Positions 25,061 to 34,287 of a stretch of DNA of 64,000 nucleotides are shown here, one piece after another; within the stretch, counting starts at the first letter, position 1; every line of letters starts with the position of its first letter. Both the position numbers and the translations under genes were made by a program. Under the pieces are notes generated by a model. The model ran no database searches. It saw only the letters and a program-made list of their open reading frames with translations, and had not been told where the DNA came from. Source of the stretch: Sulfurifustis variabilis (GTDB taxonomy: Bacteria; Pseudomonadota; Gammaproteobacteria; Acidiferrobacterales; Sulfurifustaceae); assembly GCF_002355415.1 (NCBI RefSeq), contig NZ_AP014936.1, forward strand, positions 372,001-436,000. The letters run 5' to 3'.

Positions 25061-25990
25061 CTACCATTTTATGCGTTTCCGGTAACGGTACCGGATGATG
25101 ATGGCGATCGCGTTCATCGCCAGGGTCATCACGATGAGCACGAGCCCGGCCGCCGCGGCGTTCTCGTGGAACGCCGACTGCGGGCGGGAGATCCAGTTGA
25201 ACATCTGGATCGGCATCACCGTGAACGGGGCGAACAGCCAGTCGAGCGAGACGAACGGAAATTCGCTCTTGACCGGAGAGGGCGGCAGAAAGGCGATGAA
25301 GGTGAGCGCCCCGATGGTGATGATCGGCGCCGTCTCGCCTATCGCGCGGGCGAGCCCGATGATCACGCCGGTGAGGATTCCGCCGGTCGAGTAGGGCAGG
25401 ACGTGGTCGCGCACGGTCTGCCATTTCGTCGCGCCGAGCGCGTAGGCGCCCTCGCGGATCGCCCCGGGAATCGCGCGGATCGCCTCGCGCGTCGCCACGA
25501 TGACGACCGGCAGAATGAGGAGCGCGAGCGTCAATCCGGCCGAGAGAATGCTTTGTCCGAAATCGAGCGCGTAGACGAACAGCCCGAGCGCGAGCAGGCC
25601 GTAGACGATCGACGGCACGCCGGCGAGGTTCGTGACGTTGATCTCGATGAGGTCCGTGAGCCAGTTGCGCCTGGCGTACTCCTCGAGATAGATGCCCGCC
25701 GCGATGCCAAGCGGTACCGCGGCCAACATCGTGACCAGCATGACGAGGGAGCTGCCCACCCAGGCCGAAAGGATGCCCGCCTGCGCGGCCCGGCGCGACG
25801 GAAACGAGGTAAAGAATTCCGGCGTCAGGCGATGATAGCCGTCGAGGAACATGTCGAGGATAAGCGCCAGCAGCGTGACGACGCCGACCAGCATTGCGAG
25901 CAGCCCCACGATCGCGAAGAGATGGTCCCAGCGCTTGTGCGCCGCGATGAGCGCGCGGATCTCTCGCACATGGTTCGCTTCCGTCGCCAT
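25061..25990 (-). CDS. pstA: Phosphate ABC transporter permease PstA
   Basis: PstA forms half of the inner-membrane channel. The 309-residue product has six hydrophobic segments and the permease signature region around [20 protein letters not shown]. The start ATG (25988-25990) shares one base with the pstC stop (TGATG), so the permeases are translationally coupled. The frame that runs far upstream of this ATG is a shadow of pstC. Confidence 0.96.
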
Positions 25991-26916
25991 CAGTACACCT
26001 CGCGGTAGCGGCGCCGCATCACGTGACCGATGATGTTGAAAAAGAGAGTCATCAGCATGAGGACCAGGCCGGCGGCGAAGATGCTCTGGTACTCGAGGCT
26101 CCCGTGCGGGAGGTCGCCGAGCGCCACCTGCACGATGTAGGCCGTGATGGTCGCCGCGGGCTCGGCTGGGTTCCAGGTGAGGTTGGGCTGCTGTCCGGCG
26201 GCGATCGCCACGATCATGGTCTCTCCGACCGCGCGGGAGATACCGAGGATGTAGGCGGCGACGATGCCCGAGACGGCGGCCGGTGTCACGACGAACACCG
26301 CCGTCTGGAACCGGGTTGCGCCCATGGCGTAGGATCCCTCCCGGATCTGCATCGGCACGGCCCGCATCGCGTCCTCGCTGAGCGAGCTCACGTACGGGAT
26401 GATCATGATGCCGATGACGATGCCGGCCGAGAGCATGTTGAAGCCGGGGAGATCCGGGTAGATCTTCTGCAGCAGCGGCGTCACGAGCAGCAGGGCGAAG
26501 TAACCGTAAACCACGGTCGGAACGCCCCCGAGCATCTCGAGCATCGGTTTGATCGTCTCCCGGACCCGGTGCGGGGCGAACTCGCTCAGGTAAATCGCAG
26601 TGATGGTCCCGAGGGGCACCGCGACCAGCAGGCCCACGGCGGTGGTGACCAGCGTGCCGGCGACGAGGGGCAGGATGCCATAGCGCTTGATGGAAAAGAG
26701 CGGTGTCCACTCCGTATCGGTGAGAAAATCCCAAAGCGAGACGTGCGCGAAGAAGCCGAGGGACTCGTATATCAGGATCACGACGATGGCGATGGTGACG
26801 GCCACCGCAGAGAACGCCGAGACGAAGAGGAGCGCCTGGATCAGGCGCTCCGCGATGTGGCGGCGGGCCTGGTAGGCGAATCGCGAGGGGGCCGATCTGG
26901 GATTCACGGAGCGCAT
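25990..26916 (-). CDS. pstC: Phosphate ABC transporter permease PstC
   Basis: PstC is the partner permease; it has six membrane segments and [20 protein letters not shown] as the cytoplasmic loop that contacts PstB. Two ATGs are in frame, 26937 and 26916. The PhoB box upstream predicts a -10 hexamer (TACCAT) that overlaps the first ATG, so transcripts from it would start downstream of that codon. I therefore prefer 26916 ([13 protein letters not shown]), which gives 308 residues. Neither ATG has a clear Shine-Dalgarno sequence. It opens the pstC-pstA-pstB-phoU unit. Confidence 0.94.
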
Positions 26917-26935
26917 CCGATGAACGGAAGGTGCC

Positions 26936-26969
26936 ATGGTAGGGCCGCTTTATGACACTTCTGTGACAC
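26936..26969 (-). promoter_or_regulatory. PhoB box and -10 element of pstCAB-phoU
   Basis: On the minus strand GTGTCAC (26969-26963) and GTGTCAT (26958-26952) are direct repeats exactly 11 bp apart, matching the PhoB half-site CTGTCAT. Ten bases after the second half-site is TACCAT (26941-26936), the expected place for a PhoB-dependent -10 element. It gives pstC its own phosphate-controlled promoter, after the pstS terminator. Confidence 0.8.
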
Positions 26970-27019
26970 CGGGCCGCGGGCAGCGCTTCTCTGCAACACT
27001 ACCGACCCCCCGACCGGGC

Positions 27020-27050
27020 GACAACAAAAAAGGGGTGCCGAAGCACCCCC
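27020..27050 (-). terminator. Rho-independent terminator after pstS
   Basis: On the minus strand GGGGTGC, a TTCG tetraloop, GCACCCC and then TTTTTTG form a textbook terminator about 27 bp after the pstS stop. It should end most pstS transcripts before pstC. Confidence 0.92.
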
Positions 27051-27076
27051 GAACCACCACGAAAAATCCTCGACGC

Positions 27077-28084
27077 TCAGAGCTTGGCTTCCCGCTTGAG
27101 GAGCTCGTCTATCTTCAGCCCGACTTCGGCCTCGCCGCCGAACACCGTGCCGACCTTCTTGGCCTTCAGGTGGCTGGCCGCCATCTTGTAGGCATTGGCA
27201 GGCAGCGGCACGTACCCCACTTCCTCGATCAGTGGCGTCGCCTGGGTCAGGTAGTATTCGACGAACTGCCTGACTTCCGGTTTTTCGAGCGATTTCGTGC
27301 TGACATATATAAAGATCGGCCGCGAGAGCGGTGAGTAACTGCCGTTCTCCACCGACTCGATGGAGGGCAGCACCGGCTTACCCGCGGGGTTCACGATCGG
27401 GACGGCCTTCAACCGTTTCTGGTTTTCCAGGTAGTAAGCGAAGCCGAAGTACCCGAGGGCGTACCTGTCGCTCGATACGCCCTGCACGAGCACGTTGTCG
27501 TCCTCGCTCGCCGTGAAATCGCCCCGCGACGCCTTGGACTTGCCGGTCACCGCCTCGGTGAAGTAGTCGAAGGTGCCGGAGTCCGCGCCCGGACCGAAGA
27601 GCTTGATCTCGGCGTCAGGCCACTTCGGATTCACCTGATTCCATTTAGTGATCTTGCCCTGCGCCTCCGGCTCCCAGATCTTCTTGAGCTCGGCGACCGT
27701 CATTTGCTTTATCCAGTCGTTCTTCGGGTTGACCACCACGGTGAGGGCGTCGTACGCGACGGGCAGCTCGATATACTGAATACCCGCCGCCTTGCACGCG
27801 TCCATCTCTTTCTTGAGGATCGGGCGCGAGGCGTCCGAAATATCGATCTCGCCGCGGCAGAACTTCTTGAAGCCGCCGCCGGTCCCGGACACGCCCACGG
27901 TCACGTTCACACCGCGATTGGCCTTCTGGAACTCCTCGGCGACGGCCTCGGTGATCGGGTACACGGTGGACGAGCCGTCGATCTGGACGATCCTGCTGGC
28001 GGCCAGGATCGGGCCCGTCGTACCGAGCGTGCCGGCGACCAGGGCGGCGACGCCGAGACCCGCCAGCGTGCGTTTCGGATTCAT
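27077..28084 (-). CDS. pstS: Periplasmic phosphate-binding protein PstS
   Basis: PstS captures phosphate in the periplasm for PstCAB. The 335-residue precursor has a signal peptide (about residues 1-29, cut after ILAA) and begins the mature protein with [27 protein letters not shown] and [17 protein letters not shown] supply the phosphate-binding loops. Three PhoB half-sites lie upstream and a strong terminator follows, so it is transcribed separately from, and probably more than, the permease genes. Confidence 0.95.
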
Positions 28085-28127
28085 GGATTACCTCCGGAAT
28101 GGATGTGGGTGCATTTCAGTGCCCGCT

Positions 28128-28173
28128 CACTATCTCAGCGCAACATGACAGATCGGTGAATCGGAAATGACCG
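28128..28173 (-). promoter_or_regulatory. Extended PhoB box of pstS
   Basis: Minus-strand half-sites CGGTCAT (28173-28167), GATTCAC (28162-28156) and CTGTCAT (28151-28145) are spaced exactly 11 bp apart; a weaker CGCTGAG at 28140 keeps the phase. GATAGT (28133-28128) lies where the -10 element is expected. The pstS ATG is 44 bp further on. Confidence 0.75.
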
Positions 28174-28235
28174 TGTGATGACGGCCAGGCCCGCGGTGAT
28201 TGCGCCGGGTCCTGGCGTCTCGCGCCTGGAGGCGG

Positions 28236-28679
28236 TCAGCGCAAGCGGTAGGAGGCGTGACAAGCCACGCACTGGCGGGTGAGCTCCGCGAGCGCGTTCA
28301 GCGCCGGCCGCATTTCGCCTGTCACTTGTGCCTCCTGCGCCACGCGTGCGAACCGGCTGGCGGAGCGGTGCATGGCGGTGCCGATGTCCTGCATCGGCTT
28401 GGGCATCAATGGCGCCATGTGCGACGCGCCGTGACTATGGAGCGAGCTCATGCCGATACGGTTCTCGGCGATCTCGGCTGCCTGCTCGAACCTGCCGCCG
28501 GCGAGCGCCGCCTGGATCTCGCCCATGGCGGCGAGGTGGTCGCGCATGTTGGCGAGCATGTGCTCCTGCATCGGGGCGGGCATCTGCACGAGCTCGCGCC
28601 CTTGGACCGCGTATGTCCACATCGGGACGACGATTGCGAGGGCCATGGAGGCGACAAAGACCAGGTTGCGCATTTTCAT
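28236..28679 (-). CDS. Small membrane-anchored c-type cytochrome (c'-like, C-terminal CVACH)
   Basis: The 147-residue protein has an N-terminal hydrophobic segment (about 5-25, [19 protein letters not shown]) that acts as signal or anchor. A helical region rich in methionine and histidine follows, and a single haem-binding CVACH is nine residues from the end. A haem site at the extreme C-terminus is the layout of cytochrome c'-type four-helix proteins. The ATG at 28679 is one of several possible starts (28709, 28673). It lies between acr3 and pstS on the same strand, and the 3' part of the acr3 frame overlaps it out of frame. Its redox partner is unknown. Confidence 0.75.
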   Translation of the reverse strand: MKMRNLVFVASMALAIVVPMWTYAVQGRELVQMPAPMQEHMLANMRDHLAAMGEIQAALAGGRFEQAAEIAENRIGMSSLHSHGASHMAPLMPKPMQDIGTAMHRSASRFARVAQEAQVTGEMRPALNALAELTRQCVACHASYRLR

Positions 28680-29838
28680 CTCGATCGGGATGGCGTTGAA
28701 GAAGGTCACCGCGCGCAGGCGCGTGGATGGCCGCCGGGCAGCACTGCGCGTAGCCGGGTACTCCAGGTCGCCGCTCGTACCAGTCGCGTGTCCGGTTGAC
28801 GATGTTCGCGACGGCGAGCATGACCGGGACTTCGACGAGTACGCCCACGACGGTGGCGAGCGCCGCGCCGGAGGCGAAGCCGAAGAGGGCGATCGCGGTC
28901 GCCACGGCGAGCTCGAAGAAGTTGCTGGCGCCGATCAGCGCCGAAGGACCGGCCACGCAGTGCGGCGAGCGCAGCCCCCGGTTCAGCAGATAGGCGAGAC
29001 CGGAGTTGAAGATCACCTGAAGGAGGATCGGAACAGCGAGCAGCAGGATCACGAGCGGCTGCCCGAGGATCTGTCCGCCCTGGAAACCGAAGAGCAGCAC
29101 GAGCGTCGCCAGCAGCGCCGCGAGCGAGACCGGTCCGAGGGACCGGATCACGCGCGCGAGCCGGGCCCTGCCATCCGGCCGCCTCAGGATCGACCGGCGC
29201 ACGAGGTGCGCGGCGGCAAGCGGCGCCGCGATGTAGAGCCCGACGGACAGAAGCAGCGTGTCCCACGGCACGACGATGGCCGTCATGCCGAGGAGCAGGG
29301 CCACGATCGGCGCGAACGCGAACACCATGATCACGTCGTTCAGCGCCACTTGGGTGAGGGTGAAGTGCGGCTCACCGCGCGTCAGGTGGCTCCAGACGAA
29401 CACCATGGCGGTGCAGGGTGCGGCAGCGAGCAGAATGAGGCCCGCGATGTAGGAGTCGATCTGATCCGCAGGCAGCCACGGCCGGAAAAGCGTGCCGATG
29501 AAAAGCCAGCCGAGGAGGGCCATCGAGAAAGGCTTCACGCCCCAGTTCACGAGCAGCGTCACTCCGATGCCTTTCCAGTGCGCGGTCACGCGGCGCAGCA
29601 CCGCGAAGTCCACCTTGAGGAGCATCGGGAAGATCATGAGCCAGATGAGGGCGGCAACCGGCAGGTTGATGCGGGCGACTTCGATCTGTCCGACGGCCTG
29701 GAACGCCGGCGCGAACAGGCGTCCGAGCGCGATGCCGGCGACGACGCACAACAACACCCACGCCGTGAGGTAGCGCTCGAATACGCCGAGCTGCGCGCCG
29801 GCCGGCTGTTTCCCCGTCGTTTCGCATTGGGCGCTCAT
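28435..29838 (-). CDS. acr3: Arsenite efflux transporter ACR3, 3' end probably frameshifted
   Basis: ACR3 exports arsenite across the inner membrane. Ten hydrophobic segments are visible, with the family motifs [18 protein letters not shown] and [21 protein letters not shown] plus [10 protein letters not shown]. Homologous proteins end shortly after a segment like [10 protein letters not shown], near residue 360 here. This frame instead runs on for about 100 residues of Arg/Pro/Ala-rich sequence that is a shadow of the cytochrome gene. A +1 shift would meet TGA at 28706-28708. So a one-base change near 28710-28760 (real or assembly error) may have removed the native stop. The ATG at 29838 overlaps the arsC stop by 4 bp (ATGA). 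Confidence 0.88.
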
Positions 29839-30287
29839 CGTTCCTCCTCGCTGGCCGCCATCATCTTGAGGCCGCCGATCATGCCCTCGATTTCCGCGCG
29901 TATCTGGTCCCGCACGGCGCGGAACTTGGCCATGATCTGGTCTTCGCTGCCCGTCGCCTTCGCCGGGTCCTCGAACGGCATGTGCTTCTTTCTCACGTGC
30001 GGCGGCAACACCGGGCAGTGCTCGTCCGCGTGGCCGCAGACGGTGACGACGAGGTCGGCCCATTCGAGCATCTGCGGCGTCACGCGCGTCGATTCCTGGC
30101 GCGAGATATCGACGCCCGCCTCGTGCATCACCGCGATCGCGCGCGGATTCTTCCCGTGCGCTTCGATGCCGGCGGACTGCGCTTCCAGCCACGCGCCGCC
30201 CAGGCGGTTCGCCCACCCTTCGGCCATCTGCGACCGGCAGGAGTTGCCGGTGCAGAGAAAAAGCACGCGCGCCTTGCGCTTGTACAT
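29835..30287 (-). CDS. arsC: Arsenate reductase, thioredoxin-linked (LMW phosphatase fold)
   Basis: ArsC reduces arsenate to arsenite for export. The 150-residue protein starts [20 protein letters not shown] with the P-loop C-x5-R of low-molecular-weight phosphatases. It carries the two further redox cysteines in [13 protein letters not shown], which places it in the thioredoxin-coupled class. The start at 30287 removes a shadow extension. It is 5 bp after the ATP-grasp gene and overlaps acr3, so the operon is tightly coupled. A thioredoxin gene lies 6.5 kb downstream on the same strand. Confidence 0.94.
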
Positions 30288-30292
30288 GATTG

Positions 30293-31615
30293 CTAGTCCT
30301 GTCCGCAGCGTTGCGGGTTCGGAATGGCAGTGAGTGCCGGCGTTACGACGAACGCCGGGGCGAAGCCGCCACCCGTCGTCCGGAAGTTGGTCGTCTGCCC
30401 CTGATAGAGCCGCGCCGCAAGAAGCTGCACCTCGCCGTCGTACACGTAATTGCGTACGTCGAATTTGAGAGGCGCTTCGCCGTCGGGCACTCGCCGCTCG
30501 GTGGGCGGTATCAGCGCCTGCGCGACGTAATCTCCACGCCGGATCTCGTCCCAGACCCGGCGCGTGAGCTTGTCGCCCCGATAGGCCGCGCGGCTGCCGA
30601 AGCCCGCGGCCGGCTTGAAGAAGAGCCGCCGACGGGCGGCCCACAGCGCGTCCGCGTCCGCTTCGTTCACGAGCACCGTCTCGGCGATTCCTCGCCTGAG
30701 CGTCCGAAGGCTCTCCTCGTTGACGCCCCAGGACTTCAGCCGGGCCGCATCGGTCAGGAGCGCAAGGTTGCGCTTGTCCGCGTAGAGCGCGTGTGTCCGC
30801 GGGTGCGGCGTGACGACGACGGCGCCGGCGAAGTAGGCATCGCGCAACGCCGCATGCTCCGGCTGGTCGAAGTAAAAATCGGTCACGCGGTTGTAAACGA
30901 GGTCGATGGGCTCATCGCCGTATCGGAGCGCGCCGTCGCGGAAAGTCAGCTCGCCGGCGTCCGCGACTACCGTTTCAAACCCGGCGCCCTGGAAAAGGCG
31001 CTCGAACAGCAGGAACTCGGGATACAGGTACTGCACCGCCGGAGCGTCATCGACGATGGCGACGCGCCGCAATGGGGTATTGCCGCGTTGCAGACGCCAC
31101 TCCCTGGTAAACATGTCGAGGAAGGCGGCCTCGAGCGCCCCGGGACGCGGCCCGCTCAGCAGCGGCTCGATATCGGCACAGCAGGCGCGGTGCGCACCGG
31201 TCAGGACGACATTCAGCAGCGGCCCGCCGGCGTTGGTGTTGATCTCGATGAGGCGCGGCCCGTCGGCCCCCAGATGGAAGTCGTACCCGAGGAATGCCCC
31301 CCGCGGACCCCACTCGGGCCGCGCGACCGCGGGCGCCCGAGCGAGCACCGCGTCCCGGTAGGCGGGCAGCGCGACGACGGATTCGATCGCCCGGATTACG
31401 CGCGACATGTGCCCGACCTCGTCCGGGGTCAGGAACACGGCCGTCGAGGCGAACAGGTGCGGCCGATCCACCGCCAGATCGCGGATGCGCGGGTCCGCCA
31501 GCGCGGCCTCGAGCTGGAGCCAGAGCTGTTTGGGATCGACCATGCGGCAGGCGCAACCGGCGTTAAGCGCGCCGGCCAGCTGGCTTTGGTCGATCACCGG
31601 CGGCACAGTCGACAT
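30293..31615 (-). CDS. ATP-grasp-type enzyme inside the ars operon (440 aa)
   Basis: The second gene of the ars operon encodes a soluble 440-residue protein of no recognised named family. Its centre has [14 protein letters not shown] (near 120-135), the Mg2+-binding EIN pattern of ATP-grasp enzymes. Later segments are [18 protein letters not shown] (near 335) and the C-terminal [20 protein letters not shown] with [15 protein letters not shown]. The order suggests a permuted ATP-grasp or glutathionylspermidine-synthase-like fold. Cysteine clusters GCAC (near 20-23) and CC (near 145) might bind arsenite. It starts 17 bp after arsR and ends 5 bp before arsC. A ligase making a thiol or peptide adduct for arsenic handling is possible but unproven. 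Confidence 0.75.
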
Positions 31616-31631
31616 GACTCCAATTTCTCCT

Positions 31632-31985
31632 TCACGCGCAGCAGCGCGACGGCGGCCGGTTCGGCGCGCGCCGTATCGCCCGACGATCCTTGACGAACGG
31701 CGCCTTTCCGCCGTTGTGGGTGGCGGTCTTTCCGAGCACTTCCCGGGCCCAAGCGGGGAGATCGGGGTTGATCCGGTAATGGACCCAAAGTCCCTCGCGG
31801 CGATCGACCACGATCTCGTTCTCGCGCAGCAGCGCCAGATGCCGGGAAATCTTCGGTTGCGGCTGTTCGAGCGCGTGGGTCAACTCGCACACACAGAGTT
31901 CTTGCTCGGTGGTGAGGAGCAGCAGCAGTCGCAGCCGCGTCTCATCGGACAGAGCGGTGAACAGGGTGAGGGGGTCGAGGGTCAT
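31632..31985 (-). CDS. arsR: Arsenite-responsive repressor ArsR
   Basis: ArsR represses the ars operon until arsenite binds its cysteines. The 117-residue winged-helix protein has the metal-binding motif ELCVCEL (near 29-35) and the DNA-recognition helix region PQPKISRHLALLRENEIV. It ends in Cys-Cys-Ala, which may add a further thiol ligand. The ATG lies 7 bp after a strong -10 element, so its mRNA is predicted to be leaderless. It heads arsR-(ATP-grasp)-arsC-acr3. Confidence 0.95.
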   Translation of the reverse strand: MTLDPLTLFTALSDETRLRLLLLLTTEQELCVCELTHALEQPQPKISRHLALLRENEIVVDRREGLWVHYRINPDLPAWAREVLGKTATHNGGKAPFVKDRRAIRRAPNRPPSRCCA

Positions 31986-31991
31986 GCGGCA

Positions 31992-32019
31992 AATATACGC
32001 GCGTGGTATATATGTGCAA
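31992..32019 (-). promoter_or_regulatory. ars promoter with overlapping A/T-rich operator
   Basis: On the minus strand TTGCAC (32019-32014) and TATATT (31997-31992) are 16 bp apart. The interval holds the inverted repeat ATATAC (31993-31998) / GTATAT (32006-32011), and further ATATAT runs flank the -35, as expected for an ArsR operator that blocks RNA polymerase. Transcription should start at about 31985, the A of the arsR ATG. Confidence 0.65.
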
Positions 32020-32118
32020 GCGAATATATTACAGCGGCAGGCCGCCCAGAGCGGGGAATGGGCGCGTCAGCGCCCGACGCCGAGGTGACGAACCCGTTAC
32101 GGTGGGACGAGGGCCCGG

Positions 32119-33438
32119 CTAAGCGGGCGTCGCGCGCGCGGGGATTTCGGCGCGGATGACGCGGCTGCCGGGAAACACGCACGTGAACACGCTGCCCTGG
32201 CCGAGCTCGCTCGCGATGCGGAGCTCCGCGTCGTGCCGGAGGAGTACGTGCTTCACGATCGAGAGGCCGAGGCCGGTGCCGCCGGAGGCGCGCGAGCGCG
32301 CCGTATCGACGCGGTAGAAACGCTCGGTGAGGTGAGGAATGTGCTCGGGCGCGATACCCTCGCCGGTGTCTTCGACCGAGAACTTCGCGCCTTCGCGGTC
32401 GGCGACCCAGCGGAGGCGGATGGCGCCGCCCTTCGCCGTGTGACGGACGGCGTTGTTGACGAGGTTCGAGAATGCGCTGTGCAGCTCGTCCCGGCTCCCG
32501 AGCAGCGAGAGATCCGGCTGCGCCTCGAGGGTAATCGCGTGGTTGCCCGCGCTCAGGAGTTCGGCCTGCTCCCTGAGGCCCGCGAGCAGGGCGGGCACGT
32601 CGACCGGCTCTTCCCGCGTGCGCGGCGCAGTTTCGAGCCGTGACAGCGTGAGCAGATCGTTGACCAGCCGCTGCATGCGCGTGGCCTGCTCATGCATCGT
32701 GGCGAAGTGCTGGCGCAGGCTTTCGGGGAGCTCGGCTTCCATGCCGTGCAGCGTCTCCAGGTAACCGCTCAGCACCGTGAGCGGGGTGCGTAGCTCGTGC
32801 GAGGCGTTGGCGACGAAGGTCCGTCGCATCTGCTCCAGTTGGACCACGCGCGTCACGTCGCGGGCGAGGATAAGCTTCTGGCTCGCCCCGAAAGGTATGA
32901 CCTGAACCTGTAATGTGACGTCGAGGTTCGACGGCGAGGGCATCTCGAAGGGCTCGGAGTAGTCGCCGCCCTGGTAATAGCGCGTGAAGTCGGGATCGCG
33001 CAGGAGGTTGGAAAGTCGCATACCGGCATCGCGCGGGAAATGGATGCCGAGCAGGCGGCGCGCCGCCGAGTTGGCCCATTCGATCTCGCCGTGCTGCGCC
33101 ATGATGACCACCGCGTCCGGCATCACCGCGGCCGCGCTCTGGAACCGTTCGATCATCCCCGTGAGCCGGTCCTCTCTCTGGCCGCTCTGCCGAACCAGCT
33201 TGCGGATCTCCTTGAAGACGTCGCCCCACAACCCTTCCGCCTCCGGTACCTCCTCACCCCGTCGTCGGTTCAGGAGCCAGCGGTGCAGCAGGTGGAGCTG
33301 TCGCAGATTGGCACCGATATAGAGGATGAGCCCGGCGGCGGCGCCCAGAAACGGGCGTCCGAGAATGAGTCCGAGCAACAGGCCGCCGGCCACGATTGTG
33401 ACGATGACCCAAAACTCACGCCAGACGCTCGGGTGCAC
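32119..33438 (-). CDS. phoR: Phosphate-regulon sensor kinase PhoR
   Basis: PhoR is the inner-membrane histidine kinase that phosphorylates PhoB under phosphate limitation. The 439-residue protein has two short N-terminal membrane segments (about 10-45), a PAS domain (about 95-200), the phospho-acceptor helix FVANASHELRTPLTVLSGYL with the H-box histidine, and an ATPase domain with N-box NLVNNAVRHT, EDTGEGIAPEHI and GGTGLGLSIVKHV. It starts 7 bp after phoB. The next gene on the strand is arsR. Confidence 0.96.
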   Translation of the reverse strand: MHPSVWREFWVIVTIVAGGLLLGLILGRPFLGAAAGLILYIGANLRQLHLLHRWLLNRRRGEEVPEAEGLWGDVFKEIRKLVRQSGQREDRLTGMIERFQSAAAVMPDAVVIMAQHGEIEWANSAARRLLGIHFPRDAGMRLSNLLRDPDFTRYYQGGDYSEPFEMPSPSNLDVTLQVQVIPFGASQKLILARDVTRVVQLEQMRRTFVANASHELRTPLTVLSGYLETLHGMEAELPESLRQHFATMHEQATRMQRLVNDLLTLSRLETAPRTREEPVDVPALLAGLREQAELLSAGNHAITLEAQPDLSLLGSRDELHSAFSNLVNNAVRHTAKGGAIRLRWVADREGAKFSVEDTGEGIAPEHIPHLTERFYRVDTARSRASGGTGLGLSIVKHVLLRHDAELRIASELGQGSVFTCVFPGSRVIRAEIPARATPA

Positions 33439-33445
33439 GCGCGCC

Positions 33446-34135
33446 TCAGGCTTGGGCCGAGAAGCGGTAACCCGCCCCGCGCACCGTCTGGATGAGCCGG
33501 TCGTGCCCCGTCGGCGTCAGCGCCTTGCGAAGGCGGCGGATGTGTACGTCGACAGTCCGTTCTTCCACATAGACGTTCTCGCCCCAAACGCCGTTCAACA
33601 GACGCTCGCGGCTGTGAACCCGCTCCGGATGGGTCATGAAGAAGTGCAGCAGGCGAAACTCCGTCGGACCGACTTCGACCGCCTGTCCGTGCGCGGTGAC
33701 CCGGTGTGTGACGGGGTCGATCGAAAGCCCGTCCGTCTCGACCGCGACCTCGGTGGCGTGTGGGGTGGTGCGGCGCAGCAGCGCCTTGATGCGCGCGAGC
33801 AGCTCGCGCGGCGAGAACGGCTTCGTAACGTAGTCGTCCGCACCGCTGTCGAGTCCCCGTACCTTGTCCTCCTCCTCGACGCGTGCCGTCAGCATCACGA
33901 TCGGGATGCGGCTGGTGAGTTTCTCGTGACGCAGGCGCCGTGCGTACTCCATGCCGCTTACGCCGGGCATCATCCAGTCCAGGAGGATCAGGTCGGGCAT
34001 GTCCGCCAGGATCTTGTGCCGGGCCTCGTTGGCGTCGGACGCTTCGATGCACTGGTATCCCGCCTGGTTCAGCGCCAGGCAGACCATCTGGCGGATCGCG
34101 GGCTCGTCGTCGACAATCAGGATCTTCGCAGGCAT
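33446..34135 (-). CDS. phoB: Phosphate-regulon response regulator PhoB
   Basis: PhoB activates Pho promoters by binding 11-bp direct repeats such as those found upstream of pstS and pstC. The 229-residue protein (standard length) has a receiver domain with the acidic pocket DDE and phospho-acceptor aspartate in [10 protein letters not shown], conserved threonine in MLTAR and lysine in YVTKPFSP. An OmpR-type winged helix follows, ending with [13 protein letters not shown] and VRGAGYRFS. The start at ATG 34135 removes 23 upstream codons that have no family match. Confidence 0.96.
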
Positions 34136-34174
34136 GAGGGAACCGGGAGAAGGCCTTCGATGCCGAGGCATTTC

Positions 34175-34192
34175 ATACCATAAATATGACAT
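34175..34192 (-). promoter_or_regulatory. Weak PhoB box upstream of phoB (possible autoregulation)
   Basis: On the minus strand ATGTCAT (34192-34186) is followed 11 bp later by ATGGTAT (34181-34175). The first half-site is good and the second has three mismatches to CTGTCAT. The place, about 40 bp before the phoB ATG, suits autoregulation as known for E. coli phoBR. Confidence 0.4.
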
Positions 34193-34287
34193 TTTGGTTA
34201 CCATTACGCGCTCGTTGCGGACCGGTATTTCCTACGAAGCGGTATATTTCGCGGAATCCCGCGAGCGGCACACAGGGCCCCAGGCGC

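Follow-up and report, generated by a model that had tools for sequence, protein, structure and literature searches.

A predicted circularly permuted, glutathione-synthetase-like ATP-grasp ligase with CxC and CC pairs, encoded in an ars operon of Sulfurifustis variabilis

Ligases with the circularly permuted ATP-grasp fold include the eukaryote-type glutathione and homoglutathione synthetases (PF03917), YgiC and Gss of E. coli, and Cp1B of E-64 biosynthesis; according to its authors, the folds closest to that of Cp1B are those of homoglutathione synthetase, YgiC and YjfC (PMC12568646). The usual bacterial glutathione synthetase is GshB (TIGR01380). Among the open-access matches listed for our searches (subscription papers fall mostly outside this scope), and as far as titles and the opening lines of abstracts show, we found no description of the family reported here. 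A search combining "ATP-grasp" and "arsenite" gave no paper about this gene by title or start of abstract, and one combining "arsenosugar" and "ATP-grasp" gave nothing; one "ATP-grasp domain-containing protein" is listed among metal-responsive genes in the accessible part of another study (PMC10092412).

Gene order and position in the ars operon

The gene lies in a 64,000-nt stretch of the Sulfurifustis variabilis genome (NZ_AP014936.1, positions 372,001 to 436,000), which we call the window and in which local coordinates are numbered from its first base. The genome has a single copy of this gene, at 0.40 Mb. The features of the operon region are as follows (L and G numbers below are our designations for loci and genomes).

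28435–29838, minus strand: acr3-type arsenite permease in an ORF longer than usual (PF01758, SBF, over residues 64–258 of 467)
29835–30287, minus strand: arsC, thioredoxin-type arsenate reductase (translation; TIGR02691 just over its cut-off)
30293–31615, minus strand: the gene reported here, a 440-residue ORF for a glutathione-synthetase-like, predicted circularly permuted ATP-grasp ligase with CxC and CC pairs
31632–31985, minus strand: arsR, ArsR/SmtB repressor (PF01022, NF007528 and NF033788; NCBIfam models over cut-off)
31992–32030, no strand assigned: imperfect inverted repeat from a repeat search, a candidate ArsR operator

The order is thus arsR, ligase gene, arsC, SBF/Acr3-type permease, all on the minus strand. 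The end of arsR at 31632 and the ligase start at 31615 are separated by 16 bp, rather than the 17 bp given in the earlier note, and the distance of 5 bp that it gave between the ligase stop codon (30293–30295) and the arsC start (30287) was correct. Assignment of arsC by TIGR02691 was close (174.5 bits against a cut-off of 174.3, with the sequence taken from its fifth residue). Just upstream of arsR, the two arms of the inverted repeat (31992–32005 and 32017–32030) have 14 nt each and are 79% complementary. Since we found no sigma-70-like promoter within 28100–32200, we infer arsenite control of the operon from the presence of ArsR.

Two further observations concern the surroundings. The acr3-type ORF (28435–29838, minus strand) encodes 467 residues as against 344 in its relative in L069. 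A weakly cytochrome c'-like ORF in a different frame (28236–28709) overlaps with the end of the acr3-type ORF, and the usual acr3 stop may have been lost here. The ars operon is flanked by genes for phosphate transport (pst) and by a PhoB/PhoR-like pair, recognized by eye from ORF translations (25061–28084 and 32119–34204).

Predicted fold, conserved residues and sequence relatives

An AlphaFold2 model built from a 13-row alignment had a mean pLDDT of 84 and a pTM of 0.88. The first row of a Foldseek search with this model was human glutathione synthetase (E-value 9.7e-17, TM 0.62, 14% identity), followed by the yeast and plant glutathione synthetases, Cp1B and a Gss-like protein. With VIA-align, the highest Z was to E. 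coli YgiC (28.4), followed by plant homoglutathione synthetase (26.1), Gss (25.9) and human glutathione synthetase (25.2); the top 26 rows, with Z of 21.2–28.4 over 329–388 residues, place the model with the permuted ATP-grasp enzymes, and the match to E. coli GshB (1gsa) was well below these (Z 9.1 over 211 residues). The fold is therefore predicted to be a circularly permuted ATP-grasp of the glutathione synthetase/glutathionylspermidine synthetase class, which bears out the ATP-grasp-like enzyme read from the letters alone in the earlier note. Because YgiC, which carries a peptide-spermidine ligase annotation, has the highest Z, the fold leaves the second substrate unfixed.

The residues discussed below are encoded as follows, all on the minus strand.

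31547–31555: CxC motif (C21, C23) of an LNxxCxC N-terminal extension, found in the long branch and in none of the 13 short-branch rows of alignment A2
31238–31246: E124-I-N126 metal-binding motif, its E and N identical in 38/38 rows and aligned with E134-F-N136 of PF03917 synthetases
31178–31183: CC motif (C145, C146), from the alignment
30887–30889: R243 of VYNR, which aligns with the VYLR arginine that is invariant among glutathione synthetases
30773–30775: K281, a candidate ATP-binding lysine, identical in 38/38 rows and opposite the TSK lysine of PF03917 enzymes
30614–30616: K334, a second candidate ATP-binding lysine, identical in 38/38 rows and opposite the LKN lysine of PF03917 enzymes

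Sixteen residues did not vary across the 38 aligned rows, window protein included: D112, H114, E124, N126, N128, D189, R243, D246, K281, K334, K384, D386, R388, R402, Q407 and N410. The unusual motif order that the earlier note had pointed out is thus real and invariant, with the metal motif (E124-x-N126, together with D112) N-terminal and the ATP lysines (K281, K334) C-terminal in every row, and since the fold matches rank the glutathione synthetase/Gss class at the top, we explain it as the circular permutation of that class.

The extra cysteine clusters noticed earlier likewise held up as conserved pairs within the window's branch. The window protein has five cysteines (21, 23, 145, 146 and 437), the first four of which are common to 20 of the 38 rows of A2. 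L047 has three of these four and L081 the CxC only; all four are missing from L008, L082 (G364), L093 (G003) and the 13 short-branch rows. Outside A2, L083 (G270) has neither CxC nor CC, and the CxC pattern match in L090 falls upstream of the start used. Separately, the plasmid copies L052, L053, L057 and L059 have a C-terminal extension with a common pattern; no Pfam family was over cut-off for this extension in L052, L053 and L059.

By sequence alone the window protein matched no Pfam and no NCBIfam family at E ≤ 10, and hence neither PF03917 nor TIGR01380 (GshB); we found no plausible relative in a single-protein search of PDB sequences and no relative in a search of the PDB with the profile A1. 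A link emerged when the 38-row profile was aligned by hhalign with a profile of eight PF03917 synthetases drawn from genomes of the same phylum (probability 97, E-value 1e-10, 371 columns, end to end). One of these eight, L114, matched the plant and yeast glutathione synthetases in the PDB with E-values of 3e-45 and 2e-43, respectively. In the hhalign alignment VYNR (R243) sits on VYLR (R269), whose arginine would correspond to a substrate arginine of human glutathione synthetase; profile homology and the VYxR arginine are both shared. Other matches were more diffuse. The best PDB sequence match of a short-branch profile was homoglutathione synthetase (E-value 0.0073), and PF03917 was not among the nine Pfam families matched by 17 short-branch members. 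Weak, sub-cut-off ATP-grasp matches were common among the relatives, e.g., 3 of 38 matched PRK12458, "glutathione synthetase" (best E-value 4e-4), and L034 of the short branch passed the ATP-grasp_3 cut-off by one bit (24.2 against 23.2). Against the single E. coli Gss and YgiC sequences the profile gave E-values of 0.039 and 0.073, respectively, in weak, local alignments that were in register at the metal motif.

A tree of 68 rows divided the family into a short branch (19 rows) and a long branch (49 rows) with support of 100/100. Most of the long branch has the N-terminal LNxxCxC and the internal CC. The window protein belongs to the long branch, where L048, L003 and L002 are its nearest neighbours but no small group around it is well supported.

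Occurrence alongside GshB, metal-resistance genes and arsenosugar genes

Among 398 genomes of the phylum, 128 had a homologue and 259 had GshB (counted at E ≤ 1e-70; 258 of these were over the TIGR01380 cut-off). The 128 genomes were assigned from identity and from the sequences opened as 113 short and 15 long, G003 being counted as short although in the tree it falls within the long branch, on a very long branch. We defined a Cys-less set of 115 genomes, i.e., the 113 short-set genomes, in about 20 of which the cysteine content was read from the sequence, plus G270 and G364. GshB was absent from 114 of these 115, the exception being G003, and present in 258 of the 283 other genomes sampled (Fisher p 1.7e-73, with kinship ignored and with GshB loss clustered in few lineages, so that the 115 genomes represent far fewer independent events). 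Only 25 genomes had neither a Cys-less copy nor GshB. Counted as absent were GshB-like proteins of ~195 bits in G006, G037 and G093, which are under the cut-off; G009, G017 and G044 (f40 genomes) have a GshB-like protein of ~74 bits. Besides G003, the genome of L008 combines GshB with a Cys-less copy.

GshA was found in all 30 of the Cys-less, GshB-less genomes checked for it (PF04107 in 27; PF08886 in G001, G270 and G364), and GshF was over cut-off in none of these 30, six of which (G270, G034, G105, G010, G093 and G006) had partial, sub-cut-off matches to its ATP-grasp half. By comparison, GshF was present in two (G110 and G358) of six tested genomes lacking both GshB and the ligase family. 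A PF03917 synthetase was found in 0 of the 115 Cys-less-set genomes and in 9 of the 398 overall, all nine with GshB. Because GshB is absent from nearly all of these genomes, GshA was present and GshF not found in the 30 checked, and PF03917 was found in none of the 115, the Cys-less set probably represents a non-orthologous glutathione synthetase. Our best clue to the reaction, presumably ligation of gamma-glutamylcysteine and glycine, is the way in which the set complements GshB.

The Cys-bearing copies behave otherwise, coexisting with GshB in 13/13 sampled genomes. GshB was also found in 13/13 named genomes behind L002–L010, L012 and L014–L016, a set that includes the Cys-less L008 and the remnant L016. 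The window genome has adjacent genes for a PF08886 GshA and for GshB at 3.537–3.539 Mb. No gshA or gshB was seen beside a homologue in any locus scanned.

We sought metal-resistance markers within 8.5 kb of the homologue in 49 non-redundant long-branch loci, 21 of them from plasmids (the window was excluded, and L011, L013, L067, L068, L080 and L084 were left out as redundant or broken). Copper markers occurred at 24 of the 49 loci (two or more at 18), arsenic markers at 4 and mercury markers at 2, giving 29 loci with any marker and 20 with none; the markers were picked from the plasmid loci themselves (those for arsenic also from the window), which makes the plasmid part of the count partly circular, and plasmid matches over-sample resistance islands. 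No such marker was found at 19 short-branch loci or in five control regions. We opened 23 of the 31 plasmid records with a homologue; among them are plasmids that have it in a copper-resistance region (Moraxella, Methylophaga, Caulobacter, Halomonas and Rhizobium) and pMR68, which has it in a mer region. In L004, L005, L006 and L083 the homologue lies between yoaA and mobB/moeA without a metal marker, and in L081 a small gene directly upstream of the homologue falls just short of the HTH_20 cut-off (26.8 bits against 27).

Looking for homologues beside arsR and arsC, as the earlier note had proposed, did turn up the arsR-X-arsC-acr3 order in one other locus, L002, and a 3' remnant of the ligase gene between arsR and arsC in L016, but the association is not consistent, arsenic markers being present at 4/49 loci as against 24/49 for copper. 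These counts, mercury (2/49) included, do not support an enzyme specific to ars operons, and we rejected an arsenic-only role on the strength of the copper neighbourhoods.

Other neighbours deserve mention. In the mer region of pMR68 the homologue lies beside a flavoprotein gene (L047:5233–5769) of PF02441, a family that includes cysteine-peptide decarboxylases. L046, L052, L070 and L073 have phosphoketolase-like genes no further than about 8 kb from the homologue, and in L046 a weak acetate kinase fragment directly follows it.

The short form has a different association. A homologue occurs in 65 f40 genomes, and in all 14 of those checked, by eye from coordinates, the short form directly precedes a TIGR04283 gene. 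We opened eight f40 loci (L096–L102 and L104), in which two clustered genes directly follow the short-branch gene; one representative of each was over cut-off for TIGR04283 and TIGR04282, respectively ("arsenosugar biosynthesis glycosyltransferase" is the NCBI label of both). The best TIGR04283 match lay beside the short-form gene in 0 of 13 other short-branch genomes. ArsS (TIGR04167) was found in 94 of 113 short-set genomes compared with 22 of 285 others; of the 15 long-form genomes, 4 have it. In the window genome ArsS and a TIGR04283 match, both over cut-off, lie within 6 kb of each other (G000:C1:2815577–2821451, locus L105), and the organism may make arsenosugars; this ArsS, at 2.82 Mb, is far from the ligase gene at 0.40 Mb. 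We treat the co-occurrence as a lead because ArsS is distributed over much the same lineages as the lack of GshB.

Proposed role, alternatives and comparison with known enzymes

The reading we favour, with a probability of about 0.58, is that the window protein is a ligase of the eukaryote-type class acting on gamma-glutamylcysteine and glycine or a similar amino acid, that its Cys-less cousins replace GshB, and that the window's branch is a mobile second copy beside GshB, in the window under ArsR control. It draws directly on the gene order, the predicted fold, the invariant catalytic-type residues, the complementarity with GshB and the neighbourhoods; on these we build a proposed substrate, product, regulation and cysteine role. 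Arsenite would free ArsR, and the ligase, ArsC and the exporter would then be made together. Most likely the ligase would join gamma-glutamylcysteine to glycine or a closely similar amino acid, spending ATP, and so would raise or protect a pool of gamma-glutamyl-cysteinyl thiols that would bind As(III). The CxC and CC pairs would probably bind a metalloid or soft metal, which would either act as a switch or let the enzyme stay active in the presence of metal. The earlier note had suggested an arsenic-binding thiol, peptide or conjugate as the product; a thiol peptide does seem most likely, but glutathione or a close analogue is likelier than anything specific to arsenic.

Since the hosts already have GshB, the second copy must be retained for its extra capacity, for the metal tolerance of this version or for a different third residue in its product. 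One paper describes the GshA step as rate-limiting (PMC10295655), and with GshB already present a second synthetase would accordingly be expected to raise glutathione little. Plain glutathione synthesis would be redundant in the 13/13 Cys-bearing genomes with GshB, which lends some weight to a different small thiol, made by adding Cys, Glu, beta-Ala or a second gamma-Glu-Cys to gamma-glutamylcysteine or glutathione and kept besides GshB as a better chelator. Homoglutathione synthetase being among the closest folds and the best short-branch sequence match speaks for the same idea, which we nevertheless consider unlikely: G270 and G364 have Cys-less copies from the long clade and lack GshB, which suggests that the family is able to make ordinary glutathione. 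A more elaborate and still more doubtful proposal would have the metal-island branch be a ligase switched on by Cu(I), Hg(II) or As(III) at a CxC/CC tetra-cysteine site and making a non-glutathione thiol (e.g., phytochelatin-like (gamma-Glu-Cys)n, or glutathione plus another residue), the Cys-less branch being an unnamed bacterial glutathione synthetase that replaces GshB.

That the protein might instead be a glutathionylspermidine or peptide-spermidine ligase like Gss or YgiC, with a polyamine conjugate as product, is suggested by the VIA-align scores of YgiC (the highest) and Gss and by the weak alignment that places D112, E124 and N126 opposite RMDF...YEYN in Gss. We judge this improbable, as it leaves the complementarity with GshB unexplained and as the PF03917 profile matched far better (1e-10) than the single Gss and YgiC sequences (0.039 and 0.073), although a profile against a single sequence is an unfair contest. 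The restriction of the four cysteines to 20/38 rows, with none in the 13 short-branch rows, and the soft-metal neighbourhoods of the long branch would also fit a long form that mainly binds metal, sequestering Cu(I), Hg(II) or As(III) at CxC and CC with catalysis secondary; a pure chelator would need none of the sixteen catalytic-type residues that are identical in 38/38 rows, and we regard this as quite improbable. Least probable of all, in our view, is a role in organoarsenical (arsenosugar) metabolism. The TIGR04283 gene adjoining the short form in all 14 f40 genomes checked and the frequency of ArsS in the short set speak for it, but this adjacency was absent from all 13 other short-branch genomes, ArsS occurs in only 4/15 long-form genomes and is remote from the gene in the window genome, and the co-occurrence shares its lineages with the lack of GshB.

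Should the favoured reading, a second synthetase in the window's branch and a GshB replacement in the Cys-less one, be right, it would close a gap in the glutathione pathway of those bacterial lineages in which GshA is present without a known synthetase, and resistance to copper, mercury and arsenic would gain a thiol-making enzyme among its components.

Compared with described enzymes, the window protein resembles Cp1B (9cjn) in being a predicted ligase of the same fold (Z 23.0); Cp1B differs as a fungal natural-product enzyme, with no link to metal resistance seen in the accessible portion of its paper (PMC12568646). E. coli YgiC and Gss share the fold, YgiC with the highest Z, and differ in that the sequence relation is weak and local. 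GshB likely catalyses the same or a similar reaction and is nearly mutually exclusive with the Cys-less set; it differs in domain order, in its low structural score and in the lack of a TIGR01380 match to the window protein. The eukaryote-type glutathione and homoglutathione synthetases (PF03917; 2hgs, 3kal) are alike in the permuted ATP-grasp order, the end-to-end profile match, Z of 25–26 and the EIN/EFN and VYxR motifs; unlike them, the window protein has no Pfam match, and its long branch carries the N-terminal LNxxCxC and the CC.
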